A stretch of DNA of 64,000 nucleotides, taken from contig NC_087076.1 in assembly GCF_026151205.1 (NCBI RefSeq), positions 15,708,419-15,772,418 on the forward strand, given 5' to 3'. Shown here piece by piece: positions 1,680 through 62,100 of the stretch. Source of the DNA: Bolinopsis microptera (lineage: Eukaryota > Ctenophora > Tentaculata > Lobata > Bolinopsidae). Made by a program: the position numbers and the translations under genes. The notes beneath the pieces were generated by a model. That model saw nothing but the letters and a program-made list of their open reading frames with translations, made no database searches and was not told the origin of the DNA. Positions within the stretch are counted from its first letter, which is position 1. Each line of letters opens with the position of its first letter.

Positions 1680-4600
1680 TTAGTGTTGGAGGGAGCAGGT
1701 TTCAGGATCCTTCCCGAACACATAGTCCCTGAGGATGGGAGCCAGCACATCAAGGTAAGGGCTGTGGAAACGGGTTGTATCTTCAGGAGGAGGTCTGAAT
1801 AGGGTCCCCAGCAGAACACTGTCTGTCATGGTGGTAAACACGAACCTGCAGGATATTATTGGATATTATAGGGTTTGATTAAACAAGGAAACAAAAGTGA
1901 TAATTACTTTATTGAGAACACAATAGTAGTAATCCTGAAATAATTTAAGTTGAAAACAATTCCAATTATTTACAAATATAGGCGTCATGTAGCCTCCAGG
2001 CTCGACAAACCCCGACAAACCCCGACAAACCCCGACAAACCCCGACAAACCCCGACATATCCCGACAAACCCCGACAAACGGGGTTTGTCGGGGTTTGTC
2101 GAGGGGTTTTGCCTCGGGCCCACCGACTACATGAGGCCTTCTTGTATAGTGTTTTTCCACGTAAAGCTTGATGACTCCGTCTCGGCTTTTTGTTGGGAGA
2201 CTCAAAAAAAAAAAAAAAAAAAAAAAAAAAGCCTCCAGGCTCGACAAACCGGAAACCCCGTCAAACCCTGACAAACCCCGACAAACCCCGACAAACCCCG
2301 ACAAACCCTGACAAATCCCGACAAACCCCGACGTGTCAAGATATGTCGTATCATGTCGGGCCCACCGGCTACATGATGCCTAAATATGTGGGAATAATTT
2401 AGAAATATTATATTATGCTAGTTTGAAAATAAATCGAATTTGTAGGATTAAATTTTATTTATTATTGGATATTATAGGGTCTGATTAGATTAGCCTTATC
2501 TCGCACTGCATCAGGAGGGTGATATTTTATTAAATCATGGGCTTAATTAATATCTTGTTAGTACAGGTTGGTGGTAATTACTATCCAATTACTAATCATC
2601 CACACGTGGAGTTTCTAGGAGACAATAGGAAATTGGAATTACTGTTTCAGTAGTTACATGGTATTCACCACAACCGAATATGAGTGATCAATATTTCAAA
2701 ATGAACGAGTTGTCGTCAGTGCGCTGCATAACAGTATTATTCAACAAACAAGTATTAAAATACATGCAATTCACGTCACTGTGAGGCTTACTAGAGAATG
2801 TATTTTTAGAACTAATTCACCAACGTAAGCAATGCCCGTCTCTAGCAGTTGATAGTGTGAATTTTCAAAAGCCTCCCACTCCTTTCTAGCTACAGTAAAA
2901 TGATATGCACGATTCTAATGCATTAAAGTACCGTAAACTGTATACTAAAGTATACTATACGTTAAACGGGTCCTGTTGTATAAAATGAGGTCCACTATTA
3001 ATACCACGACTACCTTTAAATTTCCAGATTAAAGATCAAAGTGATTCCCGGGACGCTCTGCGTGAATTTAACCTAATATTGCTTGAATATCGCCATGATA
3101 TTACATATTCCAGGCAATGAGGGAAGCAATAATACAGCCTAAAGTAGCAGCGTGCACTGTTCATAATCTCCAACATCACACTAGTCAATATCTCACCTCA
3201 AAGTGCAATGATAGAAACATCCTTAAATTCTTCCTCAACAACATTATTTAAATGTTAATTTACCTGACTCTTCTCTCTGATTTACTGGTAAGATGACGGG
3301 TTATGATAGTGATTATCATTAATTTACCTGACTCTTCTCTCTGATTTACTGGTAAGATGAGGGGTTATGATAGTGATTATCATTAATTTACCTGACTCTT
3401 CTCTCTGATTTACTGGTAAGATGAGGGGTTATGATAGTGATTATCATTAATTTACCTGACTCTTCTCTCTGATTTACTGGTAAGATGAGGGGTTATGATA
3501 GTGATTATCATTAATTTACCTGACTCTTCTCTCTGATTTACTGGTAAGATGAGGGGTTATGATAGTTATTATCATTAATTTACCTGACTCTTCTCTCTGA
3601 TTTACTGGTAAGTTGAGGGGTTATGATAGTGATTATCATTAATTTACCTGACTCTTCTCTCTGATTTACTGGTAAGATGAGGGGTTATGATAGTGATTAT
3701 CATTAATGTACCTGACTCTTCTCTCTGATTTACTGGTAAGATGAGGGGTTATGATAGTAATTATCATTAATTTACCTGACTCTTCTCTCTGATTTACTGG
3801 TAAGTTGAGGGGTTATGATAGTGATTATCATTAATTTACCTGACTCTTCTCTCTGATTTACTGGTAAGATGAGGGGTTATGATAGTGATTATCATTAATT
3901 TACCTGACTCTTCTCTCTGATTTACTGGTAAGATGAGGGGTTATGATAGTAATTATCATTAATTTACTTGACTCTTCTCTCTGATTTACTGGTAAGATGA
4001 GGGGTTATGATAGTGATTATCATTAATTTACCTGACTCTTCTCTCTGATTTACTGGTAAGATGAGGGGTTATGATAGTGATTATCATTAATTTACCTGAC
4101 TCTTCTCTCTGATTTACTGGTAAGATGAGGGGTTATGATAGTGATTATCATTAATTTACCTGACTCTTCTCTCTGATTTACTGGTAAGATGAGGGGTTAT
4201 GATAGTGACTATCATTAATTTACCTGACTCTTCTCTCTGATTTACTGGTAAGATGAGGGGTTATGATAGTGATTATCATTAATTTACCTGACTCTTCTCT
4301 CTGATTTACTGGTAAGATGAGGGGTTATGATAGTAATTATCATTAATTTACCTGACTCTTCTCTCTGATTTACTGGTAAGATGAGGGGTTATGATAGTGA
4401 TTATCATTAATTTACCTGACTCTTCTCTCTGATTTACTAGTAAGATGAGGGGTTATGATAGTGATTATCATTAATTTACCTGACTCTTCTCTCTGATTTA
4501 CTGGTAAGATGAGGGGTTATGATAGTGATTATCATTAATTTACCTGACTCTTCTCTCTGATTTACTGGTAAGATGAGGGGTTATGATAGTAATTATCATT

Positions 4601-7575
4601 AATTTACCTGACTCTTCTCTCTGATTTACTGGTAAGATGAGGGGTTATGATAGTGATTATCGTGTTCTCCACTGCTCTCAGCTGGGTTACCAGGTGCTGC
4701 TCGTCGTACGAAAACGCCACCTGTAAACATGTTGCTCAGTTTCAAGGAGAGGAGACGTAGCTCAGCTTCAGGAAATTGGAGACGTAAATTGAAGACAACC
4801 AAATTTATTGTAGGACATGTACCACTTGTCGAATGTCGATATATCACTAATTATCAGTACATGAAAGCTCACAAGGGCCCATGATAGCAGCGAGCTAACT
4901 CAATAATCCTTAAAACACTATATGATAGATCAGGTGCTGCAAGTAAATGCCATTAAAAGCATGCTACAAGCTGCTAGAACACTTAAACTTAGAGTTCTTA
5001 CATGCAACATTTTATAATGCTGTCTGTGGGTCCCTTTCCTAAGAGAATTAATGCACTGTGTTTTAAGAGCAAGAGAGATCCATCATATCACAACCTTTTT
5101 ATTTAGTATTATGAACAGCATGTTTGACAAGTTAGTAATTCTAAAGGCTTAAAACCTGCAAAAGGAATAATATTTACTGGCCATTCTGTTTGGCGAGTCA
5201 CGTGATGTCTGTGAGTAAGATGGTTTAGCCTGTACACGGTTTATATTAATCTACATAGTCTATACCACGTCCACACACATACAGCTAGCCTGTAAATTTA
5301 GAGCTTTGAATGCATTTATAATGCAATTTCGAGCTTTTAAAGGCCACCATTTTGTGGCTGTGGTATATCAGTATTAGGTTAGTCTATATGAAAAGAGGTT
5401 TAGTTTGCGACGATGGATATTTTAGTACACATGATGGACTTTGACATAATTTGATTACATTTATTCAAATATGATGAATACTATAGCTACGACTATTCAT
5501 TGATGTAGCAATATGAGTGCTATATGCTATGTTTAGTACCACTACCAGAACACACCTTGCAAGTTGCAACACACCTTTAATTGCATTTACTTAAATGGTC
5601 AACATGATCATATCGATTTATATGTGTTGCACAATCTGATATGCCCCTTTCAGAAGAAATAATTGAAAATCATGCGACAGTTTAAACAACACTTCAATGA
5701 TTTTTACAGATATATAATGTCCACTCGGGTCTCGGATAGTCGGAGAATAATATAAACTCAGAGCTGAGTCGGGATACTCATTATATGATGTTGAGTGTCA
5801 TGATGACGTAGTAAATTAATTATTACAGAATTATGGGGATCGATACGGTTACCCTGGCGATACTTGTGAGAATTAGCAAGGAATGTTCGGGAGTACCCGG
5901 GTAATCTTATACCCGAAAATATTTCATTAATCTTGCAGATCTGTCGAGAGCTGTGATGCTCCCTACTGAACACTACAATGTCATTAATCTCACGAAGACC
6001 TAGATAACACAAGTGGTTAACAAGAAACCCAAGCTATCAATCCAACCATCAAACGTAGATCCAGTTCTACATGGCTAGAGTGATCTATCAAATATTAGCG
6101 GAAACCCCGGGCCCGCTCATAACTGTGAGTCCCAGTTACACTAATTTTATAGATAATTTGACAGCCGTTAATACTCATTATTATATTTGACAACAAAGCC
6201 TTTTTCTGTTTTTTTTTCAGGGAGCAAATTTGCCATGTATAGGTACAGGATAAGACTATACTATACAGAAGTAACCGGACAGTGTATATATACTGTGTAT
6301 ACCGGACTTTTGGGCAGGATGATAGAATATGCGACACACAAATAGAGCTTTTACCCACAGCAGCTAAATATAATATTCTGTGATAAACTGTGTTTAATAT
6401 ATGGAGACATATTTTGCCAATATATACTGCCAGTGCCACTCGGTTCAACATATTTAAGCTTAGCAGTAATATTAGGGCCTTGTTTGTTCTGCCGTAGCTA
6501 AATGTCTGCACCAATACACCATACATGGTATAACCATAGTTTTTGAACGCCTCAAAGTAAATGGTGCATTAAGTTTAAGGGTAGCTTTTCAACATGGGTA
6601 AATAATCAAAGATTGTCATAATATGCAGGTGTTAGAAAAAGAACATTTTGCAATGAACGTTAATTCTGATGGTTATGCTGTTATCCTGTGCGCAATAACC
6701 ATTTTGGAGCTGAGCCAAAATTTAAGAACACTCAAATTTCGACAACAGGGATTGAACCACTTTTCCTGATCCATACTGTAGGTTTTTATATTCAACAGAT
6801 AAGTCTCTCGATAACATAACACAGAAAAGGGTTAACAAAATTTACTGAAACATGGGAACATGTTAAGGAAGATACTGACAACGTTTAATAAACATGGAAT
6901 ATATTTATTTAAACAATAAGTTAGGCTGGATTATATTTGATAAAATTGTAACTACTCTTACCTCCCAAAACGTAACTAGGGTCATGATAAGTTTAGAAAA
7001 GTTTCGAATCATCTGTTTCAGCAGTTGCTTCTCATTTGGTGACAACTTTTCGTTTGAATAGAGAATTCCAAGCTTAATTATTATCTTAATTATGCATTTT
7101 ATCAGTTTTTTTGCCTCGACCTCTGACTTGGCCTCCTGGGGAGAGTTATTCAAAATAAAAGATTGCTCAATAAAATATAACTGTACCAAAGATTCCAGGA
7201 GTAAATATTACTGTAAATAATTAATACATCTGCATATAATTTGACACACACTGTATTGTGATGATCATGGAGTAATAATGCCAATCTTAGAAACAACAGT
7301 CCTTTGTGATATGTGCCTATTACTTTATCAATCACAGATTAAGGGAATCAAAATCCCAGCATGATATTTCAATGGGAAAAATGCAACCCAAAGATGTTCA
7401 TTGATAAGGTACTCACCTTCAAGAAAGCGTACAATGCGTCAAGGATCTTGCCTGCATCGTCATCGATAAAATGTCTTGCAACGGAGCGGGAAGCCATCTT
7501 ACCAAGAATCTTCTTTTGGATTCTGATACCCAAAGAGTGGGACTTAACACAACTTGCTCCATTTTCATCAACCAT
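1680..7575 (-). CDS. TNFAIP8L: TNFAIP8 (TIPE) family protein, four coding exons, 203 aa
   Basis: Coding exons in order: 7417-7575, 6962-7135, 4608-4720, 1680-1845. All introns are GT-AG and all phases close. Family hallmarks run in order: QKKILGKMASRSVARHFIDD (residues about 19-38) matches the TIPE first helix; KKLIKCIIKIIIKLGILY in exon 2; PHLTSKSERRVRFVF across the exon 3/4 junction matches the conserved HLTxKSxxR...VF segment; and a final amphipathic stretch ends at SLQH. The length fits the usual 185-200 aa. TIPE proteins are cytosolic all-helical proteins that bind phosphoinositides in a hydrophobic cavity and act in cell survival, migration and immune homeostasis. The start is the Met at 7575; an upstream 5' exon is possible because the frame stays open and a TTCTCAG acceptor-like site lies just before it. 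The intron after exon 3 begins inside a 64-bp minisatellite that copies the exon's own 3' end and donor. Confidence 0.9.
1981..2380. repeat. Foldback element with CGACAAACCC-type minisatellite arms
   Basis: The ends are inverted copies of about 14 bp: GGCGTCATGTAGCC at 1981 and GGCTACATGATGCC at 2367-2380. A related internal end, CTACATGAGGCC, lies near 2127. Between them are 10-bp tandem repeats of the type ACAAACCCCG, which switch orientation near 2078 and so form a hairpin, plus a run of about 25 A. GCCTCCAGGCTCGACAAACC-type sequence recurs at about 1990 and 2231, suggesting two nested or duplicated copies. It lies in the last intron of the TNFAIP8-family gene. Short open frames across it are repeat translations, not genes. 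Confidence 0.65.
3255..4662. repeat. 64-bp minisatellite, about 22 copies, built from a TNFAIP8 exon end plus its 5' splice site
   Basis: The period is exactly 64: the anchor TACCTGACTC occurs at 3261, 3325, 3389 and onward to 4605, giving 22 copies with only scattered substitutions. On the minus strand each unit is 54 nt identical or nearly so to the end of coding exon 3 of the TNFAIP8-family gene, followed by GTAAATTAAT, the start of its intron. Only the rightmost copy (4608-4661) is joined to the unique part of the exon. All others lie in the intron and repeat the donor site. Confidence 0.95.
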
Positions 7576-8907
7576 TACAAAGTCTGAGAATTGTTTGTAA
7601 AAAAGTCAAGTTGACTCATTTCGACTATTTTTTCACATAATTATATTATTATCTAACAGCATATTATGATATGTATACAAATAAAAATAAAAATCAATAA
7701 AATGGGGTCTTAAGGAGGCCAGGGGTCCCAATACTATAAATGACTAAGTATTATTAAGAAAACAACAAATTTAATTTAATTTCCATAGCACATGTGATTT
7801 CAACTGGGATGCAACAAAAATGACCTTTGTTTCTAACCAATAAGGATTTGTGGGATCGTTTTGAAACTTAGCAGGCATAAAATTTACGCTGTTTAGAGCA
7901 GACAAAATTCATACTGTCAGCATTTTCGATTTAAAGGCCTAACTTAAAGTTTTGCTCTGAAATAAATTCCCTAAATAGTATTTTGTTTAATACTTTGACA
8001 CTACTGCATAACAAATAATTTTAGTTATGTCAAATCGCAAGGCACTAGTCGAGTAATGATGCATATTGCATATTACCGGTTAAGTAACGATTCAGTTTCC
8101 CTCCCTCCATCCTGTACCAAGCCAAAGAAGCTTGTTTATCTCTGTACAAGGTACTGTTTTCTTCTATTTAAAAAAAAAGCAAATTGCAACAACAGTTTTG
8201 TGATAATCCTCTAAGTATTTGTTTAAGAGCTCTGCTTCGGATGACTACAGCATCAACAACTTTTGTGAGTACGGTGACGCCCTTTTGGACAGTGTGGAGA
8301 ATGATGATCTTATGGCTTCAAGTATTTAAAATCGGGTTTCAATAAAAAAGTATCAAAAGCTGAGGAGCAGAACAAAATTGTTCGCCTTTTTCTGATGCTT
8401 ACACCGAGAACTCGATCCTAAAAAGAGTCCTTTTATCAACCATGGCCATGATTTAAACAAATTCCTAGCCACAAATAATACTCTGACCAATATTTTTTTT
8501 CTTGAAAGTTAAAATTGTTGTTTTCTTGGAGATAAGATCAACTGTGAATTTGGAGGTAACCTGAATGTCATCAGTTAAATGGTTTCCCTTCTGATGCTAT
8601 CAGAAGTGTGCAATTTGTTGATAACAGACAAAAACATTTTTGGAGCAATGCGCTGGCTATAATTTATATCCCCAAAGATGGTATGACCTAGTGATGCGTG
8701 TCAGTTTTCAGTAAAGGTTCCGTCGCCGATCAGTCCACTCCAAATGTGTGAAAGGGTGAAAGATTTGAAATAAACTTGTCCTTTACAGCGCGGCGTTCAT
8801 CACCCATTTGAATAATACAACCCTCCAAAATCATAAATATGTCGGATGTTTCTCACTATGCAGCGCTTTACCTAACTTGCTTTTCTTACGTAGAAGCGAG
8901 CTAGAGC
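7576..8907. other. Spacer upstream of the TNFAIP8-family gene
   Basis: AT-rich sequence with no supportable gene. A short frame at about 8238-8328 (start SDDYSINNFCEYGDALL) looks protein-like but ends after about 30 codons and has no recognisable partner. It should include the promoter or 5' UTR of the minus-strand gene; no specific element is recognisable. Confidence 0.35.
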
Positions 8908-9172
8908 TGTTCAGGAAGCAATTGAAAAGAGCGCGGTGCACAGGGACTGGCGTGCCAGGTACGCTCCCACTTGTCAAACGTTGTATGACCTGCCGCGCAC
9001 GAGTGCGCGGCCCTGTATTGTCGCGTAGAAACGCTACACTTAGTGAAACGACAATGGGGGTCACAACGTGATACAAGTACTTACCCAGCTCAGTATATTT
9101 AATTGCTTGCTTCTCTCAGGAAGCTTGCGCTTGAAAAGAACGCCGCGCACAGGGATTGGCGAGCCAGGTAAC
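8908..9172. repeat. Pair of roughly 55-bp direct repeats in GC-rich sequence
   Basis: Segments at about 8908-8962 and 9117-9172 share the order CAGGAAGC, TTGAAAAGA, GCACAGGGA, TGGCG and GCCAGGTA with small changes. The 106-bp MITE-like copy at 8971-9076 sits between them. The surrounding 8.9-10.4 kb is distinctly richer in CG dinucleotides than the rest of the window. Confidence 0.55.
8971..9076. mobile_element. Short hAT-like MITE, copy 1
   Basis: Begins TTGTCAAACGTTGTATGACC and ends GGGTCACAACGTGATACAA, which are imperfect inverted repeats. It contains the palindrome GCCGCGCACGAGTGCGCGGC. It is the same family as the copies at 17968-18090 and 48819-48865. The flanking octamers (GCTCCCAC and GTACTTAC) do not match, so this copy has no preserved target duplication. 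Confidence 0.65.
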
Positions 9173-9539
9173 TATATTTCATACTAGTAAGGTTTGCTGG
9201 AAAATTGGAAATGAGCGGGAAATTATAAGGATTCTGGTCCGAAAAACTATTGATATTGTAGCTGGCGCGATGCGTTACTGGGTCGCGCGCTGCGCGTATC
9301 CAATAATGCTTCTGTGTTCTCGTTAGATTTAATCGGCAAAATGCGCTACTTGCCTCATGCCAAGCTACTATACAAAAAATGTTCACCTAACCTTAATTGA
9401 CGATGTCAATTCATGGCAGCTCGGCGCGGCACAGTAGCGCATCTCGCCGATCTCTCTGTCGCTGTGAGAAGCCTCATTGAGTGCGCGGCGCGGCACAGTA
9501 ACGCATCGCGCTACAACACCTAACCATATGCTTTCGCGC

Positions 9540-10400
9540 CACTTCGGGCGCGCTTGTTTCACAAGTCGTGAGGCGGGCGCGCGCTACTGCAAGCGCAAGG
9601 GCTCTGGATAGAGCAACGAAAAATTGACACCGTCAATTAACCAAGCGCGCAAGGATATTAAAAATACAAAATAAAACGTTCTAATATTATTTGGGGACCT
9701 CGAGCTTTTTCTGCCGCGGATAAATAAATTGATGCTGCGGCGGAATAACAATGACCTGAACAAGCTGATCGCCTACAACCAGAGGAACCCCAATAGACGT
9801 AAGTCACTAATGACGGACGTAGCATCCCAATAGGGAGGTAAAGTGGGTGCCCCAACATTTAAAAAAAAAAAAGCTGATCGCCGCCCAGTTATAACGCGTC
9901 CCGGCGCGAGTTGCTCCAACCAAAGCCCTCTCGCTTAATTGCAGTAGCGCGTGAAACAAGCGCGTCACGCAGTACGCGTAGACACATGGCTATGTGAACG
10001 GCGCGAGGGTGGAGGGTATCAAAAATATAATACATTAATCATCGAAATGCACAATGCATATGTGCCTATTATTTCGTCTATCGCACATCGAGTATCGAAT
10101 CGACAAAAATATTTTATTACGTACCGTTCATATCATAGAAAACGTACATGAAAATAAAAATAAATTTATTGTCATGCAAGACGCTTTAAGAATTTAAAAT
10201 CAGCAACATCAGTATACATTATGAAGCAAACAATGTTAACGTTACTGTCAATCCAATTATCGGCCGTTCAATCAGTCAGTCTCCTTTTTACTTAGCCATG
10301 AATCTACGCGTACTGCGTGACGCGCTTATAGTTATTTCACTTTCGGCGGTCGCGCGCTACTGCAAGCGAGACTCGAGAGGGCTCTTGATAGAGCAAATTC
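9540..10400. repeat. Nested GC-rich inverted repeats, including a 372-bp TIR element
   Basis: At 9958 and 10296-10329 lie inverted copies of about 34 bp (AAGCGCGTCACGCAGTACGC and on through CGTAGA..CATGGCT) with about three mismatches, bounding an AT-rich interior of about 300 bp. Outside them a second inverted pair appears: GCAGTAGCGCG at about 9941 and CGCGCTACTGC at about 10350, continuing to CCCTCTCG/CGAGAGGG. The same CGCGCTACTGCAAGCG...GGGCTCT...GATAGAGCAA string also occurs at about 9580-9620. This looks like one MITE inside an older foldback family. Confidence 0.6.
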
Positions 10401-10418
10401 TCCTAGTTCACTATCAGT

Positions 10419-10493
10419 TTACCTGGGGATCCCAGGCTACTATATATATAAATAGAGATTTGGCGGAATGACAGGCTGAGCGCCGCCCAGTAA
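10419..10493. mobile_element. 75-bp interspersed element at the stop codon of the receptor gene
   Basis: Begins TTACCTGGGGATCCCAGGCT and ends AGCGCCGCCCAGTAA, so the tips are imperfect inverted repeats. It is flanked by direct repeats of CTATCAGT (10411-10418 and 10494-10501), or 9 bp if the preceding A is counted. A related copy occurs at 49692-49796. The right-hand target copy contains the TGA of the neighbouring minus-strand receptor gene. Confidence 0.7.
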
Positions 10494-10496
10494 CTA

Positions 10497-11627
10497 TCAG
10501 TCTCCTTCACCACACGATCTACACCAAGAAGTGACTTTTCTCCAGTAGTTTACATATTTTCTCCTCAACTCCTCCTTCCTGCAGATCAAGATAACAGGAT
10601 AAAACACTGCGTATATTAGCGGCAGTGTGAACTCGGAAAATCCTAGTCCCACTCCCAAATCTGCTATCACGTTATCTGAATGGGATTCCTTATCCCAATG
10701 ATGAGCGTTGTAGTATAGCCAGAATCCTACGATGAGGCAGACGTACAAAGTGTTACAGATGAAGAAGAGAAGTGATACAGACAGGACTGTGATAGAAGCA
10801 TTTCGAGCAGGGTTGGGCATCAGTGAGGTAGCTTCATTCTCTTCTTCTGGCAACGATCGCCTCAAGTACACCACTTGTATCACCATACAAATGAGCACAA
10901 CCAGTGGTGGAACTAAGAAGTAGACTGCTACCATTGAATACTGAAGATTATCAAAAATCTCCTTGTTATTCCCCGTGTGCATATGGTCACGGTCACATCT
11001 TGTCCTTCCAGACTCATCTCGCATGCAATATAAGACGAGAGCGGTGAAGCCTCCAGGCACTTCGAATACAAATAGCAAGAACAAATACAGATAAGCGCTT
11101 CCGATACCAGGATCATACAAATTCAATTTTGGTGTTTCTTCAATCACCATGATGACATCCGAAAGGTGAAGCATGGCTATAATCGTAATACAACAACATG
11201 TCACCACACCCATAAAGCGATCAGAATCGATCCTGTCAAAAGGGTTGACCACTTTTATGGTGATAGAGATGGTCATCGCGAGATTGAACACCTTGGACCA
11301 ATTCGCACCAGGGAGTGCTGTCAACATGTAGTAAACCAAGCTCTTATAAAGAACAGTCACCTCGACCAGTCCTGTGTACGCTAGGATACTGATCACCGAG
11401 AGAACCAACTCTCCTTGTGCTCTGAGAATGTCAGACACGGCAATACCCATGAACAAGCTTGGGATCAGCTTGTTCCTGTCCTTGTAGTAGTTTAGAAAGA
11501 TGACAATGTTTCGGGTTATCACTATCAGACTCAGGGGGATGGTGAGAGGAGATAAATATAAGAATGTTCCTTTGAAAACGAGGTAAACAACGTGGTCAGA
11601 AATATGTTCTACATTCGACTGATTCAT
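10497..11627 (-). CDS. Divergent rhodopsin-class-like seven-transmembrane receptor, intronless, 376 aa
   Basis: A single uninterrupted frame with seven hydrophobic segments: about residues 22-45, 57-80, 95-120, 138-162, 175-202, 233-258 and 280-302, with a further one near 325-350 that includes the TM7-like stretch LIYAVFYPVILI. One of these counts may be a split helix. The N-terminus (MNQSNVEH) has a possible N-glycosylation site. A basic cytoplasmic tail follows (CRKEELRRKY). The DRY motif after TM3 is not recognisable (KVVNPFDR occupies that place) and NPxxY is reduced to FYPVI. Intronless divergent receptors are typical of expanded invertebrate chemoreceptor or peptide-receptor sets; the ligand cannot be inferred. 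The stop codon lies inside the target duplication of a 75-bp repeat. Confidence 0.75.
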   Translation of the reverse strand: MNQSNVEHISDHVVYLVFKGTFLYLSPLTIPLSLIVITRNIVIFLNYYKDRNKLIPSLFMGIAVSDILRAQGELVLSVISILAYTGLVEVTVLYKSLVYYMLTALPGANWSKVFNLAMTISITIKVVNPFDRIDSDRFMGVVTCCCITIIAMLHLSDVIMVIEETPKLNLYDPGIGSAYLYLFLLFVFEVPGGFTALVLYCMRDESGRTRCDRDHMHTGNNKEIFDNLQYSMVAVYFLVPPLVVLICMVIQVVYLRRSLPEEENEATSLMPNPARNASITVLSVSLLFFICNTLYVCLIVGFWLYYNAHHWDKESHSDNVIADLGVGLGFSEFTLPLIYAVFYPVILICRKEELRRKYVNYWRKVTSWCRSCGEGD

Positions 11628-12890: not shown

Positions 12891-12896
12891 ATTTGA

Positions 12897-14055
12897 TTAC
12901 TGCAATTTAAAATTGTTTGGAGTCCAAGTATCTTTTAAGTCAGCTGCCTGTGCTTGTATTAATAGTGCTTTGGTTCTCAGTTTTATCAAGCTAATGGACG
13001 TTTCTAGGCAATTGCTTGAAGTTAAAATTTTTTTATGAACAGCGTTCCAAAGCTTGGCTGCATTAAACAAAAAGGTATTTGATTTATTTAGGAGAATAAC
13101 CGTGAGACTCGTTGCACGGTTTGAAATGTTGATAGCCTCATAAAGGGAGTATGGGCAGTGGTACTTGATAATCTTAGAGAATTCTAAGATGCAGTGATAT
13201 TTGTACAAGTTTTGAGCCGTAAGAATTTTTAATCTATTAAAAATGGGTTTTGTATGCTCCTTTTCAAAGTGTTTATGGTCTAGTTTTTGCATACCGTATG
13301 GTCTAGTACGTGCACATGTTGATTGTTTATCTAAATATGAGTCAAGGTCGCCAAAAAGGATCCTTATACAGTGCTTCTGTGTGATGAAAAGACTATCATT
13401 GGACCGTTCTCTGAGGACAACACCCCAAACACTTATACCATAACTGAGATGTGATTCAAAAAGAGCGTTATATATTTTCAAATATAGTTCAGAAGGTATC
13501 GATTGCCGAATTCTGCAGATTGCACCAGTCATAGATCGCAGTTTTTTACGGATGTAGTGCATGTGGGCAATCCAGTTTAGCTTACTATCTATAACAACAC
13601 CTAAGAATTTGGTATCCTTGACTTTAGTAATAACCTTACCATTGATGAATATTGATCTAGATTCATCTAGCAGGATAGCAAATGGTCTGGTCCGTGCACA
13701 GGTGTCATCATATTCAGAGGCTGGTTTAAAATGTATGTAGCAGCATTTGGACATGTTGATATGAAGTAGATTACATTTCATGTAAATCGAGACATGTTTA
13801 AGCACTAAGTTGGCTTTTTTGTATGTTGCTTCTCTAGATGGTCCTGATATGAAGATATTAGTGTCATCAGCATAAAGTACAAATTTCACCTCACTGTCTG
13901 AAAAGCAGTTTACTATATCGTTCATATACAATAGGAAGAGTAACGGCCCTAGAATTGACCCTTGTGGTACTCCAAATTTCACGTCCATTGTTTCTGATGG
14001 TACATCGTTATACATAACATACTGCTTTCTGTTAGTCAAATAGCTTTTTAGTAAG
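12897..14055 (-). pseudogene. 5'-truncated non-LTR retrotransposon reverse transcriptase
   Basis: An open frame of about 380 codons holds the second half of a LINE reverse transcriptase. It has the palm motif GVPQGSILGPLLFLLYMND, the catalytic YADD in KFVLYADDTNIF, the thumb-like LNWIAHMHYIRKKL, then SYGISVWG and a C-terminal region. Homology begins at about 14055 with LLKSYLTNRKQYV and stops, so the endonuclease and the first RT motifs are missing; this is the usual 5' truncation. The organisation suits the Jockey/CR1/L2 superclade; the exact clade needs a search. The frame is still open, so insertion may be recent. Confidence 0.85.
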
Positions 14056-15134
14056 GTAAGTGCGAGAATTTAAGCGATAGACTATATCTATATAAATAGA
14101 CTAGCAAGCTAGGTAATGAAACAATGTGACATTTGTACTGTCAAGTGTATCACTTGTTCAACATCAAATTATCAGATATAATACGGGACTCGGGAGGATA
14201 TAATTTCTTTAATCCTTAAATCAGGCCGGTAATATTGCAGTTTACATCAGTCCCTAGCTATATATAGTAACTAGCCACACCGCTATTGAATAACGGTATT
14301 TCTCAGTCTATGGTCTACTCAACAAAATATTAGCATCTGATCAAACTGGTGGGACACAGGTTCGTCGAATGATCTTTCTATTATCTCATCATTCATTAAT
14401 TATCCTTTCCCGACCCCGTGACTTTACTAACTACCATCACGTTACTATGAGACACTCGCCTCATCATGATGCTGGATCATAAATGCTACAATAAAGTAGC
14501 ATTTAGTGGTTTGTGCGAAGTATCGTGTAAAAATGGGACAGCGAGGTTTATTTCTATGAGGCATATTAATCTTTTGTTTACCGTTCCAATATTTCGAGCC
14601 CGGATACAATTCTAAGTATAATATTCCTAGTTTGTAAACTCCCTTGCATTTCCGATTAGTGACTTAATTGTGTGATTAGTAACCCAGCAGTCTGATTAGT
14701 GATTTGTGGGTTGGATACGATATATATAGCAAAACTAACGCTAACTTGTTTTTACCAAAACCCAGAATTGGGTAGAGCGGACCGTTGCCTTGTTCCTCCT
14801 TTTCCCAAACAAAAAGAAACGATGTAAATATGAACCGTTCTCATATGCAAAATAATACTGATTAATTTGTCGGCAACTAGAACTTTATGTTTCATGCGAT
14901 GTATGTAAAATAAAATCAATAATCTATCAAGCTTAAACTAAAAATTTAATTTAATTTAACATTCAAGTCATTGTCTGTTCGATTCCAAAACAATTTTTAA
15001 TATTTTCCAGTTCCGCATGCTCACTTTTTTTAACCGTTTTTCATAGCTTTTTTTTTCATTAAAAAAAAAAGAAACTAAATAAAGTGTTTATCCGTGCAGT
15101 TCAGTTATAACTAATTTTCCATATTTAATTACAA
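14056..15134. other. Spacer downstream of the TSP1 gene
   Basis: No supportable gene. AT-rich sequence with short A/T homopolymers near 15045-15072. The right edge should contain the 3' UTR of the minus-strand TSP1 gene. Confidence 0.35.
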
Positions 15135-20220: not shown

Positions 20221-35947
<15,727 letters not shown>

Positions 35948-49796: not shown

Positions 49797-49919
49797 AAGA
49801 AATGCGATTGCTGTTGATGGGATTAATCCTCAGGATCTAGGAGGGTGTACGTGTTCTATGCAGAAGACTATCGTTTTTGCATTTCAGAAATTTGTCAAAC
49901 TAATGTTTGTCCATTAGCT

Positions 49920-50030
49920 GATGTTCTGGGGGGGGGGGGGGGGGGGGGGGGGAGGGGGGTTTCCAAATGATTACGCTGGTGTAATTTTGATACAATGGCT
50001 ATGTGTAAAACTGCTAGGTTGAGATAATAC
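49920..50030. repeat. Poly-G run and fragment of the 52.6-55.0 kb TIR element
   Basis: A run of 25 G (49928-49952) and AGGGGGG are followed by GGTTTCCAAATGATTACGCT and then GTGTAATTTTGA...ATGTGTAAAACTG. The same word order occurs at about 54905-54958 inside the TTAA element, so this is a partial copy of it. It is joined directly to the LINE 3' fragment. Confidence 0.65.
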
Positions 50031-50039
50031 TACAGAAAT

Positions 50040-51262: not shown

Positions 51263-52559
51263 GCGGTGGCATGCCGGGTGTTTTAAAAACCAATCCATAA
51301 TCAGTAAGCAGTTAGCGGGAAGCAGCCAATTAATCAATAGGTAGATCTAAGATCCAAATAATGTGAATATAAGCGAATATGAGGAGAACAATTAAAGCTG
51401 TATTATATCATCAGAGGAAAGCGGTGGTAAGTAAATAAGGTAAATAAATAAGTTTAACCTAGTGGCATTAAGGATTAAGGCAGCACTCGTCTCATATAAA
51501 ATTAACAACATCTAAACATCATTGAGGAGAACTAACTAGCGCTAACAAAGTTTTGATCAATGCAAGACTACTCTTCTCAAAGTTGGTATACAAAGAATGT
51601 CACATACATAGGAATGTCGTCCATAAAAGTATGGTGTAAGACTGCTGTCCCTCAATTCCTCAAGTCTCTTTTGATCTGCAATAATTTAACAATAACAATG
51701 AGCAAGCAGAAAACAATAGCGGCCGCCAATAAATCTACAGGTTGATAATGTTCACTCATGGTCTGCACTGAGTATCGATTGAACTTCTCAAACAAAAGGG
51801 TACAACAAAGAAAACAACAATTTCAAGAAAAACAAAGCGATAACATCATACAACTTTCCCAGTCAGTACTGTTGAGTTCCATAAACAAAGGCGCTGAAAT
51901 CTATATAAGAACCTACCCTACATAAGAACTATGCTCTATTTCTAAGCCAATCAACAGAAATCCATGGATCACCGTCGATTAACCGTCACTGATTTAGGTG
52001 ACGAAACCTGATCTCAGTGGGATTCTAGATGGATTCTTAACGGTGGTCGGTCACCGGTTGATTAAGCGGCAAAATTTGTTGCAAAACTTCTGTTTTGTTA
52101 AGTACGTATATCATATTCATAATGTGGTGATCTTTAAAAAGTAAAACTGGCGAATTCATAACGAAATTTTGTAAACTATTACAGTTGAATGTTTCAATAA
52201 TTATCTAAACGTACAAACCGAACTCCTCGGTAACGATCGCACACTGCACACCATCTTGTAATGTTTACATGTACTATTATAGTAAAATAAGTAATACTTA
52301 TTAAGTATCGATAAAAGAGAGTATTAAAAGAAAAGAATAGCCAAAAAGGATTTACAAAACTATCTTTTGAAATCAATTCGTAAAAGAATACATAATTTTT
52401 GATGGATTATATAAATAATTAAGATAACATCGACAAGTTTTCAATAAACCATAATTAATCAGATCTATGAAACCGTATTTAATTGTTTTCGTATCACTTT
52501 GAAAGGTTCATCAGATTGAGAAACTTCATAATCATAAGTCTTTGTAAGAGAGAGCTCCT
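51263..52559. other. Spacer between the LINE tail and the TTAA element
   Basis: AT-rich with no supportable gene or tandem array. Confidence 0.35.
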
Positions 52560-52563
52560 TTAA

Positions 52564-55022
52564 GGGGTCGTTCACATATTACGTAATCAGCCGAGGGGGG
52601 AGGCACAGTGGGGTACCATTATGACTTTTGCTAAAAAGTTGACTTTCTCAAATACTTCATTTTAGGCTTTGTTTTAATTGAGAATCGTTTGCACAATCCA
52701 AAACTTTTTCAATTATGCAAATATTCCATTCCTATGAAACGTTATGGCTTTTGAAGTGACGCGCTTGCCAAATTTTGGTAAATCTGGTCTTTGCTTTGTT
52801 GTGAGGGTAGTGATTCAAGTGGCAGGCTGAAACTGCTCATACACATAACTTACATGAAATGTCATCCTGAATATGCTTGTTAGTGATTCTACTATACTTG
52901 GAGCATATAATCTTTATAAAAGGACGGCTGTATCTCCTTTTTCTGATTTTTAGTACCCAATAACAAGGTCTGGGCTTAAAAATTCACCTCCAAATTGTGT
53001 TTTTGATTTTTTTTGGCACCAAAGGGCTCAACCAAAAATCGGAAAGAATCGGAAAACTAGCTGTTATGTTATTTCGATAGCCTAATATGTTTTAAAGAAC
53101 ATATTTTTTTTTTATATTGAAATCTTTCAATCATTATCATCAGAATTTATTACAATATCAATGTTGTATAGAATTTCTAAAAATGGACTAGAGAAACCAA
53201 AAAATGCCTTGACAAGTGTACAGCGATGATAACAATCAGGGGACACCAATACACCCAAATAACCAAACAAAAGGCCTCGAGAGACCTGATGAAAAGTCGA
53301 GCAATTACATTGGGCCCCAAGTGCAGAAGGAGAAAAATGGGCAAATAATATGAGCTGTGAACTTAGGAGGCATTTCTAGGTTTTTAAGAATAATTGCCAC
53401 AACCCAAAAATTCTCAATTACAATTGGCTGATTTGTAATATTTCCGATGGAATGAAGTTTTAACGATAAAATTTAAATAATTGAATATAAAAGACTAAAT
53501 CAAAATTGTATCCGAATAAAGCAAAAATGCGTGATGAGTACCTCAAAAAAAATTAAAACAAAAATAATAGAGAAATACACTACCCGTAGTCTGGAGAAAA
53601 AGAATTGTCAGGATCTGAACTAGGGTCAATATCTACAGATGCAGTACAAACATGTTCCTTCCAGATGTGTTTAATAAGTTCTGTTTTAAACACACCTGGT
53701 CTGATAATCTCTCGAAGGGAAAGAGGAAGTCGGTTCCAAGTGAGATGAGCTCGATAAAAGTAAGATTTAGATATAGCTGAGCCAGGTGGAATTGAAGATA
53801 TTACTGATAAGTGATCAAGATGTGAGCTTCTCAGTCGGCTTGACCCGGAGAAGAAAGTAAGGTACTGAGGCAGAGTGGTGCATGGGTGGTATTGATGCAC
53901 TAGGGAATGAAAGAACTTGAGATCATGGTAATCAAACCTGTACTTTAGGGGCAGAATATTTAACTGTTTACAATGGGCATTATAGATTTCCTCTACACTA
54001 TAGCTTACACCGTAATCATTACGAATCCATTTGAGGGCCCTTTTCTGCAATCCTTCAAGCCTATTGATAGTGCTACTGGACGCTGGTCGCCAAATGATGG
54101 GACAGTGTTCGAATATTGAGCGTACAAGAGTAAGATACAAGACTCTTCTCTTGTTCAGATCATTAATAAAATGACAATTTCTCTTAAGCATGCCAAATTT
54201 TTGGTTAGCTTTACCATATTTTTATAAAAAAAATTACCGTTGCCTACCGTTGCATTTTTGAGAAAATTTTTCTTAGCCTTGAAAAGCTCAATGATAGACT
54301 AAAAACTGATTTTTTTCATTTATTTCACAGCATTTTCGGGCACACTTTGATATTTTATGTCAATACCAGCAAAGTTCAATATGAATAAGCAATATTTGGA
54401 TGGAAAAATAGTGCATATGAGCCAAAAATAGCCAGGGGCAACTCTGATTTCATAGGATTTTTCTTATATTTTTGTCATATTGCATATTGCATAGATTTAT
54501 GGTTATCCTTGCTAAAATACCCTTAAACAATCACATCAGCATGATTGATGACCATTGCCATACGACTACTACTACTACTATGTTGGAGCTAAGCTACGCC
54601 AGAAAACCCCCTTCATATATCCCTGTCCCGCATCAGGGTTCGCAGTTCCTCTTTAGAGTTTGTCCCAATGCACTTTTTCTAATGAGGAACTGTATAGTGA
54701 TATACAGAAAGAAAATCTGTAGTAGATCGAAAATTTACTTCCATACGAAAAAGCAGAAAATGGGACAGAAACCGTTAAAAAATCGATGAAATCTTAAAAT
54801 TGCTAGTCAAAAAAGATGTTTTTTGTGCGACAGAAAGTGCCAAATTTTCAAAAAAATTATTTTTTGCCCAAAAAAGTAGTGACAGTTTGGAAACCCTCCG
54901 GAGGGTTTCCAAATTTTACGCTAGTGTAATTTTGACATAATAGTTATGTGTAAAACTGATTACGGAGGGGGGAGGGGGTTAAAAATTTACAAAAAGTGAT
55001 TACGTAATATGTGAACGACCCC
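52564..55022. mobile_element. TTAA-target DNA transposon derivative with 26-bp perfect TIRs
   Basis: The left end GGGGTCGTTCACATATTACG and on through TAATCA is repeated perfectly in inverted orientation at 54997-55022. The flanks are TTAA (52560-52563) and TTAT (55023-55026), consistent with a TTAA target duplication with one change. TTAA duplication is used by Kolobok and piggyBac-type elements; TIRs beginning GGGG would need a search to classify. No transposase remains. A minus-strand LINE fragment lies inside. Confidence 0.8.
53104..54215 (-). pseudogene. LINE 3' fragment nested in the TTAA element
   Basis: The 203-codon frame at 53580-54191 is a post-active-site RT region: NKRRVLYLTLVRSIFEHCPI, then INRLEGLQKRALKWI, with a C-terminal ITS-like stretch AHLTWNRLPLSLREI. 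This is the common tail of Jockey/CR1-type LINEs. A T run at 53104-53113 is the likely poly-A end on the minus strand. It is a different lineage from the fragments at 12.9, 34.2 and 50.0 kb judging by sequence. Confidence 0.8.
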
Positions 55023-55026
55023 TTAT

Positions 55027-56177
55027 GAGGAGCATACATTACTTTTAAAATATTTATGATAAATGTTACGAAAAATCAGTTTTATTGACACTTCGAGACG
55101 TAACTTGATTTTAAGATTTTGTAATTTTCGTAACATTCATATTAGAGTCCTTTGCGGCAATTACAAAACTAAAATTTAATTAAGAAAAGAGAATAAATTA
55201 AGAGTTACTATTAATAAATACTAAAGGATAAGAAAAAAGGGTAATCTATGCACGAGAGATACATACTATTAAGCTTTACTATTAATAAATACTAAAGGTT
55301 AAGACAAACAGAAGGGTTATCTAAGTAAGAGTCAGCCAGAATCTTCATAATTGAATACACCTGGCAAGTTTGGATCCCTTTCCTGTCTGTCGATAATGTA
55401 AAGTGTAAACAACCAGAAAAATGTAGAGTAGAAAACCAACAATTCTTATGATAAAAAATAGTACTCTTCAGCTGCTCACATGATTACCCCCAAAGCTAAA
55501 TAAAAACCAAATCATTCCTCCATCTTCCATCGGATACACATTATAATACAGCAATATATAACAATTGATGAGCTATTAACGATAAAAAATAATTGTTTCG
55601 CTTTCCGTTTAATATTTATATACATTTTCAACTGAAAATACGTGCAAAAAACCTAAAATCTAGCCAAAAATAATCATTGTGGAGACTCTATGGCCAATAT
55701 TCCCAAGCTCACTTGACATTCCCTATTTAAAATATTGTGTGAAGTGCTAAGCATCTTCGATGTTTTCTATAAAAATAAAATTCGTGAATTGATGGTGCGG
55801 GAGTTGCTACATCAGCCAAATAAGGAATGATTTTAGGAGCTTCGACATTACTGCGAGTACATTACATTATGTACTCAGGAAACAAAGCAGTTCTGCACCT
55901 TTGGTGACGAGAATTTGAAGCTAGGGACCCAGTATGTTTTCTTACTACTGCATTGTTCAACTCAAAATTACCATTATCTGTTAGCAACTTTGTTGGAATG
56001 AATAAAACCGAGGATCTCGCTAAACATTGCATAATGTCCTGATTTCAAGAACATGATAATTGAAGTGGCATCACTACGTCAGCAGCAGCAGTGATCAAAA
56101 TTTCAACATTCCTTATTTGGGTGTGGCTTGTTAACGTTACAAATACAGTTCCTATATCCTAGTTTGATGCGGGGGGA
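55027..56177. other. Spacer and probable 3' UTR of the ZIP gene
   Basis: No gene supported. ACTATTAATAAATACTAAAGG occurs twice near 55208 and 55278 in a roughly 70-bp degenerate duplication. Confidence 0.35.
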
Positions 56178-59100
56178 CTAATCGTGGTCCAGGTGATTTC
56201 CCAGATCGTCAAGGTGGTCCTCGTCATGATGTCCCACTCCGTGCGCGTGAGTGTGGGTGTGAAGCAGAGAAGCCAGCCCAATGATAAAGATCCCAAAGCA
56301 GATACAAGGGATCTTATACTTCATGTCTTGCTTGTTTTTTAGCTCCGGGAAAAGGATTTCTGCAAAGGTGATGTAGAGGAAAATACCGGTTCCTAGTGCC
56401 TGAAAAAGGGCAAAGATTAACAAAAAGAACAAACAAAGAGGGGTTTATGGGTGGCATCTAAATAGCCGATAAGCGGGTGGGTTGCGAGGACATAATCAAT
56501 TTGTTATGAAATAATGTGGAGCTAACAAGATTAGTTTAGTCGCAATTTTCTGTATATTCAATCCAGGATTTAACTAGATTCCGGCGAAATATATTTCAGT
56601 TAATCATTCTATTAGAACTTTAGAATAAATCAAATTAACCTGCACTGTGCAGGTTGCAGAAATGATTCTACAATCTATGCCACTCACTTTATTTATATTG
56701 CTTATGATGACTATTGCCTTTGGTGCAAAAAAGATTCCGAAAATTTTCTCGTAGAATAATAGACTTACCTGAATGACAGCAGTCGTAATAAGGAGAGTGG
56801 ATCCAGTCAACTTAGCTTCAACAGCTACACCCAGTACAATACCAATAGGGGTCCCGACAGACAAGATAACCGCATACACGCACCCTTTCTTGAACTGTAT
56901 TTCTTGGGTTACCAATCTCGACCTAGAAACATTTAGCGTTAACAATTTCTATTGATATCTAGAGAAGTCACCTTTCGCGATGCCGCATCAGCCTGATAGA
57001 CGACCGACTCAGGTGATTTCGCAGGATGAATCGACTGCCTCGTGAGTAAGCTATTGATAACAACTTAATTCACAATTGGTTATTATGTCTGCAATGATAA
57101 CACTGCATGCTGAATTCTGTTGATAAAATACGATAAACGGCCACATGACAACGTAACGCGCCGCGCGGATGTCAATTTGATTCACACGCGCGTCTTTTTG
57201 CGCATATTTATGAGTAAAAATGGATACGCGCGTTCCAAACTAAATAAAATGTAGACCCTCTTTTGTTCTTTGAACTTTTCGCCTGTCAACGATGAATGCA
57301 AACAGACAGGACTCTCACCTTGACCGCGCCCAAAATCGAATTTAGAATTCAAATGAATGTGAACCGGACACTCACGCTTTGAGGTACACGTATTCGGTCA
57401 ACAAACCGCAAATACCTGTCTTAAACCTCATATCCCGCACTGTAACAAGGAACAAAGCCATAGCAAGGTCAGTAGTCAACAAGAGCGAATCCCCAAATGT
57501 AAGTAACCGCTAATCAAATAATTATGGGGATGAAACTAGACGCACGTCGAAGTGCAACCAGCGTCTTGCCCTGCTGAGATCACGTCATCCATCTTTCAAC
57601 AACAATTACACATCAAAGTTGTATGACGAGATGAGCAGACCCTTACAGTGTTATCTTACTCTACACCCCCACACACAACCAAACAGCTGCACATTTAACA
57701 CGTCAAGTGTAAGGGTTTGTGTCAGGTTATAGAGTTACATGCAGGGAGACGGCTATAATCCTACCTATCGTTAGTATGACATAGCTACACGCGTGTTAGT
57801 ATCAACACTTTAATGGTATATAATATAGCTCACCCCAGGGTCAGAGCTATAGCACATTTGTGAATTAGAACAGCGCCCATCAGACCCATTATAGTCTCTG
57901 CTTGTCTCTCCACACCTACTGCACCCCCTGCAATGTTAATAGATTGTACAGATTGTGGGGGACACTAGATAACACTGAAGTAAAGTTAAATTAATAATAA
58001 AGCTGTCAAATTAATAATAAAGCTGCAGGGATTTAATTATGTCTTAATTATGTCTTAAACTAACCCTCGAAGACGGAGTGAGTAAAGAGTGAAGCGAGTA
58101 GTATGCCAATGTTATGTCTCTTTTCTACGACACATCTTTTAGGAGTGTTGGAAGGCATCAGAAGAGAGTTCTTGTCAGCTTGTAGGATCACGTCCGTTGT
58201 TTCCTGTCATAGATATTCATATTATAATTAAAATATCATAGATATATTCTATAAATATAATATTCATAATCTAATTTCATAAAAACACGATGGTAGAAAA
58301 GAAATACTAAAAAACGCCATCTATTTTTAGATTGAGGTAAAAAGCAGCCGTTGATCATGCTACCGTTCCTTTCGTCAAAAATGCAAAAGATCTTATTTCA
58401 CCATAATATCAAGATTAAACATAAACTCATTAACTCATTCATTAACAATGAACATTAAGTAATTAGAACAGATTATGGCCCTCTGCACCATCAATTCAAT
58501 GCATACCATGCATTACCCTCTTTCAAAATCTCCCGTTTCTGGTCAAAGCACCATTCTTTACCTGGAGGAAGCCTCCTCTATGTTCTTGTACACGAGTTTT
58601 ATGTATATATATAAATATAATATCTTATGTCACTGAAGATGACGCCTTGCAACATGTTTGACGATAGCCTGTAAATTTATAGTTTGATCTCAGTATTATA
58701 TTAACAAATCATCTAGCTTGATTGATTCAAAGGGAGAAAATAAATTCTTCTGGAATAGTTTTAACCGTATCATGCATTACATAAGTTAAACCATGCCGTT
58801 ACTACGCATTCCGATGTTTTGTATACCAATTTACTTTTTGCAAGTTCGTACGACATGTACACGAATCTGGGATCACCAATTTGGGAAGGAAAGGACTTTC
58901 AACTTGCGTATTCTCAATCTGTGTCATGTCTATGACTTCAGTTGTTGCTGTGGCGACATCACCCTTATTGTTTATAAACTCATAAACATCACCCTTATTG
59001 TTTATACCTTATTGTTTATGAGCCACTAGAATAATCCAAACCGAAAAATATCACTTAAATCCACTAGGCAATCAATGCCATGAAAATATATATTAAATAG

Positions 59101-62100
59101 AAATTTAATTAATGCTGTTAATCAAGTGCCTTGTTGGTTAGATTGTAAAGATAAGGGAAAGATAACCACCACTGAACTATATAATTAAAATGTTTTATAA
59201 AATAAATATCAATTATCAAGTAAAGGTATGCCTGCCAGATTTCGGCATATATAAAAAAAAACAAAACTATTATATGGTATGAAGTGAGATGTGAACGTAC
59301 GACGGGAGGTAGGTTGTTGCACTGGTCAGGGCTGATATTCTCCAACATGTGCAGGTCGTTGTGTTTCTTCTCGCACTTCTCACAGTCCTCTGCGAACACG
59401 CCCTTCTTCAACTTCCGTACTGATAGCTGGTCAAAGAGCGTCTCTAGAAACAGGATCAGACAGAATCCTAACACCTGGAGTATTAGGGTTACAGGGAGTG
59501 AGACAGAATCCTAACACCTGGAGTATTAGGGTTACAGGGAGTGAGACAGAATCCTAACACCTGGAGTATTAGGGTTACAGGGAGTGAGACAGAATCCTAA
59601 CACCTGGAGTATTAGGGTTACAGGGAGTGAGACAGAATCCTAACACCTGGAGTATTAGGGTTACAGGGAGTGAGACAGAATCCTAACACCTGGAGTATTA
59701 GGGTTACAGGGAGCGAGACAGAATCCTAACACCTGGAGTATTAGGGTTACAGGGAGCGAGACAGAATCCTAACACCTGGAGTATTAGGGTTACAGGGAGC
59801 GAGACAGAATCCTAACACCTGGAGTATTAGGGTTACAGGGAGTGAGACAGAATCCTAACACCTGGAGTATTAGGGTTACAGGGAGTGAGACAGAATCCTA
59901 ACACCTGGAGTATTAGGGTTACAGGGAGTGAGACAGAATCCTAACACCTGGAGTATTAGGGTTACAGGGAGTGAGACAGAATCCTAAGACCTGGAGTATT
60001 AGGGTTACAGGGAGTGAGACAGAATCCTAACACCTGGAGTATTAGGGTTATAGGGAGTGAGACAGAATCCTAACACCTGGAGTATTAGGGTTATAGGGAG
60101 TGAGACAGAATCCTAACACCTGGAGTATTAGGGTTACAGGGAGTGAGACAGAATCCTAACACCTGGAGTATTAGAGATACAGGGAGTGAGACAGAATCCT
60201 AACACCTGGAGTATTAGGGTTACAGGGAGTGAGACAGAATCCTAACACCTGGAGTATTAGGGTTACAGGGAGCGAGACAGAATCCTAACACCTGGAGTAT
60301 TAGGGTTACAGAATCCTAACACCTGGAGTATTAGGGTTACAGGGAGACAGAATCCTAACACCTGGAGTATTAGAGATACAGGGAGTGAGACAGAATCCTA
60401 ACACCTGGAGTATTAGGGTTACAGGGAGTGAGACAGAATCCTAACACCTGGAGTATTAGGGTTACAGGGAGTGATACAGAATCCTAACACCTGGAGTATT
60501 AGGGTTACAGGGAGTGAAATAGAGAATAATTATTATCAAGAAGTAATGTTAAACACTTAGTTTATGATTATATACTCGCCACTGCGTCATGACAGAATTT
60601 TCTGTAAGAGTTGAAAGCACTATTAAAAAAGGGCCATCTCATCATAAATTAGACTTTTTGAAGATAAAGAAGTTATTTTTTACCTCTAGGGTTTCAGCAA
60701 GAGGAACAGGCATTTCTTGACCAGTCTGCAGCAGATACTGATTCATCTGTTGAGACACCTGAGCACAGAACCATAGAGTGAAAAATTCTAATGTTACAGT
60801 TTAACATTGGAGCTATTGAAAAAGGTTAATAGAGGGCTCTTTGTTAGTATGGTCGGCAAAAAGGACAAAGAAGAAATGCAATTATCAGACAATGATTAGT
60901 CAATGTTCAGGAAGTAATATTCCAGAACCACGGGAACAATGATTGCCTTAATTGATATATTATTGTGGTAACAATAATATGTCAATTAATAGATGTGTCA
61001 ATTATAGATGTTTTTATAATCTGGGAGCGTTTGAAGGGTCATTGTTCATCTAAGAAATCTGTAACGCCATACATCTTAGCTAAACGTCTTATTAAATAAA
61101 TCTAAGCATCTTAAATCCATTCAAACAAAAATTAAGGACTAGTATTTGTCTATATGAGACAAGAGAAACACATCATAATGTATAACTTAGAAATCTTGTC
61201 TTGACGAACAGAAAATGATTGTCTAGACAGTAGACACTGTTGTCTATACATGCTCTAGAAATATATATTTATTTAATGATATTTCAGAAATAGCATTAGT
61301 ATGCTGAATGTTGGATCTTGGAACGGAAGGGAACTGACCTCAGGAATAAGATGAAGGAAGATGGTCCCAAACAGAACACCACCACCGAAACAGTTAGCAA
61401 ATGATATGAGCCTCTGTCTGTGTTCGCAGGAGTACGTTTTATAGGGTAGCACACAGAAAACTGTTGTCAGAACTGAGAGGAGACCTATATTAAGGTTTTG
61501 TATATGTGGATTGTGGTGGGGAGGTGATGCTTATATTTTCTTAACACGTGACAGCATTTTTGGAGTTTGATTGTTCAATACTGGAAGCTGTTTGGTTAAT
61601 TGTGTTAGGAATATGTTTCACATCCCAACAAGGATCCACATCTCTGAATACTACCCACATCATGAAGTATAATGCAATACGAGTTAGTGATGTCTGAGTT
61701 GGGACCTAGGACCTGTTCGGTCCACAAAATCTCAAAATCTTACCGGTCGCGGTATGGAAGTTGGTTTTCATTTTGTACTTTTTTGTTTTTTTAAGAAATG
61801 GGTCCCCTTCAGGACCAGTACAATGAGCACCAACTCTTATCTGTACCATTGTGCAATACACCATTGTGCAATACACCATTGTGCAATACACCATTGTGCA
61901 ATACACCATTGTGCAATACACCATTGTGCAATACACCATTGTGCAATACACCCTTGTGCAATACACCATTGTGCAATACACTATTGTGCAATACAACAGT
62001 GCACTTACCATTGTACTGGTCTTAAGTGTAATTTAAGGGACGGTGTCAAACCTTCCTTACAATATATATCCATCCAGGTGCCTAAAAGGGCCGATATTCA

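Follow-up and report, generated by a model that had tools for sequence, protein, structure and literature searches.

Minisatellite arrays across splice junctions in Bolinopsis microptera: moderate evidence for a recurrent class at 5' splice sites

Splice-site minisatellites as such are already known. One of them, in IFI6, reportedly provides several splice donors in a transcript, to judge by the title of a 1995 report by Turri, and Zhuo is said to have described intron gain by tandem duplication in 2007. A duplication model of intron gain based on AGGT, with 24-bp AGGT repeats in fission yeast, is given by Ma et al. (2016; PMC4974935). De Grassi and Ciccarelli (2009; PMC2812944) describe human genes of segmental duplications with expanding minisatellites of mean 30-bp units, some internal tandem repeats lying at exon-intron boundaries, and 27 intron modifications, and link them to new introns and alternative transcripts. 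In one open library, no published report of a genome-wide excess of arrays at 5' splice sites was found, and no literature matched tandem repeats in ctenophore introns. The stretch analysed here, called the window, is 64 kb of the genome of the ctenophore Bolinopsis microptera (C5:15708419-15772418). It harbors array A at a 5' splice site of a TNFAIP8-family gene and array B at a 3' splice site of a ZIP zinc transporter gene. A genome-wide search provides moderate evidence for a recurrent class of arrays at 5' splice sites in this genome.

Array A was identified by Tandem Repeats Finder (TRF) as 22 copies with a period of 64 (98% matches), and all 22 units are exactly 64 bp long. The host gene belongs to the TNFAIP8 family, as its four joined exons (Table 1) match Pfam PF05527 with an E-value of 8.2e-48. 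Alignment of the joined exons with PDB 5jxd is gap-free along the third exon and on into the next one, over ..SERRVR^FVFTTMTD.. (^, junction); therefore, the first unit of array A comprises old coding sequence and a real donor. One unit is exonic and 21 are intronic, with 4607 the first base of the intron. The third exon contributes its final 54 nt to the first unit, and the array extends 1.35 kb into an intron that runs from 4607 to 1846, continuing for about 1.4 kb past the array to the acceptor before 1845. The minus-strand donors read TCAG/GTAAAT in 20 units (slash, exon-intron border), and TCAA/GTAAAT and TCAG/GTACAT in one each. Only the exon-proximal copy (1/22) yields an open frame, as any of the 21 distal donors leads at once to an in-frame TAA. 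Array A is young or homogenised, because only 13 changes from the consensus occur in 1,408 positions (22 x 64), a divergence under 1%; the exonic copy equals the consensus apart from its edge base. The intron is older than the array, since part of the unit is intron sequence that runs on into the adjoining intron.

Array B comprises 25 copies with a period of 43, with 22 of 24 steps measuring 43 bp, one 39 and one 31. Each unit joins 26 nt of intron end to the initial 17 exon nucleotides, and contains a putative branch site, CCTAAT or TCTAAT (a label by consensus only), and the 3' splice site ACTCCAG, which is present in 25/25 units and is followed by GTGTTAGG in 24 and GTCTTAGG in one. The productive acceptor places the first exon base at 59474, and exon 4 opens with VLGFCLILFLET. 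The frame is kept by the last copy alone (1/25); the 24 others meet a premature stop after at most about 35 codons. Most of the 1,209-nt intron is array. Inclusion of the exon that starts in the array raises the match to the ZIP family (PF02535) from 43.5 to 59.4 bits, and a PDB search with pieces of the transporter gave no match. THSVFEG, at the end of the later open segment, is presumably the next ZIP transmembrane motif. A preliminary description of the window had proposed that two unrelated genes carry junction arrays of opposite polarity, each with one copy fused to the exon and the rest in the intron. Homology now fixes both genes and both junctions, and the arrangement is as proposed, with one exonic and 21 intronic units in array A and the exon-proximal copy of array B on exon 4.

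Two junction arrays in one window are mildly surprising, and decide nothing alone. TRF was run on the window and on 13 hand-picked, non-random 10-kb stretches, one per chromosome (194 kb in total), where 37 arrays with a period of at least 10 and at least three copies were found (191/Mb), ten of them in the window. At an assumed 0.8-1.4 junctions per kb, 0.18-0.32 junction-spanning units would be expected in the window. Judged from the 13 hand-picked stretches, the probability that a 9-mer position falls inside such an array is about 0.002, so that about four arrays of the donor word CAGGTAAGT are expected genome-wide.

The evidence for a recurrent class comes from a search of the 264.65-Mb genome, which has 13 large contigs, for three copies of one exact donor word with gaps of 8-38, with the backward word as control. 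Array counts are lower bounds, from the first 100 matches listed per search. Triple CAGGTAAGT gave 431 matches and triple AAGGTAAGT 457, versus none for either backward control, with at least 12 and at least nine distinct arrays, respectively, among the matches listed. When the next base was required to be other than A, 290 (CAGGTAAGT) and 196 (AAGGTAAGT) matches remained and the controls stayed at 0. As single words, CAGGTAAGT occurs 2,462 times versus 1,212 for its control, and AAGGTAAGT 4,018 times versus 3,288. Compared per occurrence with four control words, the donor words gave an odds ratio of 3.6-5.0 (Fisher p 3.4e-4 to 3.7e-5), calculated with an estimated 5,400 or so independent donor words, array copies removed, and an estimated 8-11 arrays among roughly 10,200 control words.

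For the 21 arrays listed for the donor words (Table 1), at least one flank was read for each and the exon side for 20. Fourteen were placed at a splice junction, in unrelated genes: 11 at same-strand donors, two at acceptors and one at an opposite-strand donor. In seven of the eight donor arrays compared by edge alignment, the unit consists of exon end and intron start, with the exon end identical or near-identical and 12-54 nt of exon in the unit; L022 is the exception. The frame-keeping acceptor of the homeobox gene is found past the array, in unrelated intron sequence. By eye, the exonic TAAGT of this gene matches the donor GTAAGT, a short homology at the likely duplication end. For the WD40 gene, the edge of the intron reads GTAATTTT and the units read GTAAGTGGGG, with GTGGGG from the exon and an AA homology, also by eye. 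Both edges are compatible with duplication between short direct repeats, which could strengthen the donor. The comparison sample for the arrays was 18 consecutive single CAGGTAAGT sites on C1, where 5-7 were judged by eye to be real donors (taken as 6), two of them near-identical copies. Codon-usage scores separated arrays and single sites partially, exceeding the 90th percentile of the null at 8/20 array edges (L042 unscored) versus 3/18 single sites. As a separate observation, L039 (C10:17038450-17040450, minus strand) has an exon of about 22 codons seemingly with arrays at both ends, a three-copy repeat that includes the acceptor (AACATAACTTGCTTTTCAG..) and, at the donor, a long array whose units are mostly 27 bp.

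The acceptor side differs. Triple TTTTCAGG gave 204 matches versus 85 for the backward control; with 21,684 and 8,934 single words, respectively, no per-word excess over the control was found for this acceptor word. By eye, five of 16 TTTTCAGG arrays among the matches listed lie at real-looking acceptors, plus one degenerate copy. About 59% of TTTTCAGG sites are acceptors by excess over the control, from which 9.4 of 16 would be expected (P for six or fewer, 0.07). The acceptor word thus does not rise above the neutral level and may lie below it, in line with harm from upstream copies of the branch site and AG. The genome-wide process suggested in the preliminary description is therefore partly supported: it has support at 5' sites, from the 14/21 arrays at junctions and the 3.6-5.0-fold excess, whereas a general junction effect has none from the 3' word TTTTCAGG. 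The degenerate copy (L054, on C4) and L053 (on C3) contain the same SAC-phosphatase-like exon, frame-broken in L054; the junction array was seemingly copied with a gene fragment.

Several points weigh against the excess at 5' sites and the junction calls on which it partly depends. The neutral word TAGACAGTA gave 85 triple matches in seven arrays (one, at C11, is a repeat with a 7-bp unit formed by the ends of the word itself), and its reverse gave 6 matches, with 2,638 and 3,138 single occurrences, respectively. With TAGACAGTA among the controls the donor excess is 3.6-5 fold, whereas the backward words alone would make it look absolute. The controls comprise few words with uneven counts (0, 0 and 7 arrays, and 6 matches), and the Fisher p-values are too sharp because these words differ so strongly among themselves. 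Donor sites are also genic, and if introns are richer in arrays, part of the excess would be a gene effect. Against the single C1 sites, the 14/21 arrays at junctions compare with 6/18 (p 0.039, a weak test), and same-strand donors alone with 11/21 versus 6/18 (p 0.19). Pfam matches exceed the curated cut-off in four of the 14 junction calls (homeobox, two ABC transporters, helicase), the WD40 match falls below it and nine calls are without a match; L023, L026, L028, L037, L039, L040, L041, L043 and L048 gave no Pfam match, and that of L022 was insignificant. Ten of the 14 calls rest mainly on open frames and consensus sites read by eye, and for three of these 14 arrays the junction is not a donor formed by the searched word, two being acceptor cases and one a donor on the opposite strand. 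The search covered exact strong donor words, whereas the donor of array A (GTAAAT) is a weaker one, and site use is predicted from DNA.

Table 1. Features of the window and arrays found by the genome-wide searches (numbers without a contig are window positions)
Feature	Position	Strand	Basis
TNFAIP8-family exon (..SHSLGIRIQKKILGKM..AFLK)	7417..7575	-	PF05527 on joined exons; donor AAG/GTGAGT; 3' end exact, 5' end approximate
TNFAIP8-family exon (EAKSEVEAKKL..TFWE)	6962..7135	-	PF05527 and 5jxd alignment
TNFAIP8-family exon (VAFSYDEQHL..ENT and IITIITPHLTSKSERRVR)	4608..4720	-	5jxd gap-free across junction; final 54 nt form the exonic unit of array A
Array A, 22 64-bp units with 5' splice site	3255..4661	-	TRF and donor reading
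Next TNFAIP8-family exon (FVFTTMTDSVLLGTLFRPP..), acceptor CTGCAG	1683..1845	-	PF05527 and frame; 3' end approximate
ZIP transporter exon 1 (MTDMHDHHDEG..)	62551..62671	-	PF02535; splice sites by eye
ZIP transporter exon 2 (LLSVLTTVFCVL..HLIPE)	61339..61484	-	PF02535; splice sites by eye
ZIP transporter exon 3 (VSQQMNQYLL..PLAETLE)	60684..60758	-	PF02535 and frame reading
Array B, 25 units, exon-proximal copy fused to exon 4	59458..60517	-	TRF and acceptor/frame reading
ZIP transporter exon 4 (VLGFCLILFLETLFDQL..)	59330..59474	-	Zip domain score gain; 3' end approximate
Later open segment ending THSVFEG	58063..58206	-	Open frame
Third array, AT-rich 12-bp repeat, 9 GTAAGT	24365..24508	-	TRF and word count; judged ordinary
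L030/31, homeobox, ..LAQIQVQ^VWFQNRR.., donor		same	PF00046 57/57, complete with intron removed, 4.4e-23
L042, ABC transporter, unit codes ..EGGSNL^SVGQRQL.., donor		same	3.3e-8, match spans junction; exon side not reached
L045, ABCA-like transporter, donor		same	1.3e-12, match spans junction
L024, WD40, WDR62-like, donor		same	1.7e-5, 24.4 bits, below curated cut-off
L022, L023, L028, L032/39, L037/38, L033/34/43, L048, donors		same	Open frame and splice signals only
L026, L041, acceptors			Frame and signals
L046/47, DEAD-box helicase, donor		opposite	PF00271 2.1e-9
L025, L027, L035, L036, L040, L044, L049 (n=7)			No exon seen or unclear
L051, L060, L064, real-looking acceptors			By eye
L053, acceptor, SAC-phosphatase-like RTNCVDCLDRTN exon	C3		By eye
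L057, acceptor, WD40-like			By eye
L054, degenerate copy of acceptor array	C4		By eye

The third array of the window, which had been described as carrying GTAAGT in every unit and as part of the same pattern, looks ordinary. Its 144 bp contain nine GTAAGT versus 11.3 units by TRF, and no exon-intron junction was found at 24365-24508. Other repeats of the window include a 15-bp minisatellite (20252-20391) in frame on the minus strand, coding for repeats such as NGHMT within a 265-codon open frame; two 10-bp arrays (CGACAAACCC-like) that flank an A27 tract, with a short inverted piece between (2003-2332); and a perfect (TC)125 microsatellite (32962-33211). Reverse-transcriptase-like open frames at 12897-14069 (minus strand) and 34156-34530 (plus strand) are, by eye, probably LINE elements. 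Elsewhere in the genome, triple CAGGTAAG was rejected as a counting pattern: it gave 984 matches versus 26 for the control, and all 100 matches listed were one C1 array. A composite array of about 8 kb (C1:6658097-6665824) has two CAGGTAAG per unit of about 57 bp, and an array of about 54-bp units at C1:428573-430919, beyond the gap range searched, has 44 exact AAGGTAAGT words.

The arrays are best explained, with a probability of roughly 0.6, by a founding duplication across an existing exon-intron border and subsequent growth into the intron, with the exonic copy under selection. The founder would be one short tandem duplication straddling the border, possibly formed by slippage, and the array would then grow through slippage or through unequal exchange. 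The exon-joined copy would stay selected as coding sequence and working splice site, and is predicted to be the site used in RNA, while the extra copies would be intronic and spliced out. Good tolerance is expected of arrays at 5' sites, since the exon-proximal donor there is both the first to be transcribed and the only one with an open frame. Arrays at 3' sites would be less tolerated because each upstream copy supplies a branch site and the next AG, which would shift splicing. A tentative and rather doubtful extension is that minisatellites have hotspots or refuges at 5' splice sites, arising or persisting there several-fold more often than in neutral DNA and with no match at 3' sites, because selection sees only the exon-proximal donor and the conserved exonic copy re-seeds the array. 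Over-representation at 5' sites might stem from a mutation bias at transcribed donors, or from the conserved exonic copy keeping the array homogeneous.

It is also conceivable, though unlikely, that no junction-specific process exists, and that arrays meet junctions by coincidence in a repeat-rich genome from which exon-harming arrays are removed. The density of 191 arrays/Mb in the 194 kb sampled is in keeping with such a coincidence, as are the four or so CAGGTAAGT arrays expected by chance, the seven arrays of one control word, the unenriched acceptor word and the weak within-word test. Coincidence does not readily account for at least 12 CAGGTAAGT and at least nine AAGGTAAGT arrays versus zero backward-word matches, for p-values of 3.4e-4 or lower with pooled controls, or for 14 of 21 arrays at junctions. 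Selection for function is improbable. Stacked donors, as U1 sites, or acceptors could tune splicing or protect a long intron, and 20 of 22 donors in array A are unchanged, all 25 acceptors of array B retain AG, and 5' sites are over-represented. However, the intact sites of array A reflect youth only, because its divergence is under 1%, and every distal site in arrays A and B leads to a premature stop.

A role in intron birth, raised in the preliminary description, finds little room. In the Rogers model, tandem duplication of an exon segment bearing AGGT creates an intron between two copies. Units with AG/GT donors do take the form GT...AG and resemble stacked candidate introns, and cases are described in fission yeast (PMC4974935) and human (PMC2812944). 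However, the arrays of the TNFAIP8-family and homeobox genes sit inside longer introns with their own acceptor beyond, and this frame-keeping acceptor lies in unrelated intron sequence. The unit of array A also includes sequence continuous with the intron beside it, and intron birth is accordingly very improbable as the origin of these arrays.

If the 5' excess is true, tandem repeats can grow beside coding sequence without harm. Introns could then lengthen in a simple way, and if donors are indeed hotspots or refuges, the growth of minisatellites there would be a steady source of such lengthening. Natural introns in which tens of near-identical donors or acceptors compete would also be useful for the study of first-site choice by the spliceosome.

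The arrays of B. microptera resemble the described systems and also differ from each of them. Like the IFI6-type minisatellite, they carry splice sites in their units and lie over an exon edge, with 22 donors in array A and 25 acceptors in array B; unlike it, the distal donors here lead to stops, many genes are involved and acceptor arrays occur too. Arrays A and B share with the human repeats of PMC2812944 a unit of minisatellite size across the boundary, whereas those repeats belong to duplicated paralogs and the genes here are conserved, with introns older than the array in the tested cases. Finally, tandem copies with AG/GT are common to these arrays and to intron gain of the Rogers/Zhuo/Hellsten type. 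Unlike in the Rogers model, the introns of array A and of the homeobox gene pre-date the array, and are not bounded by the GT of one array copy and the AG of a second one.

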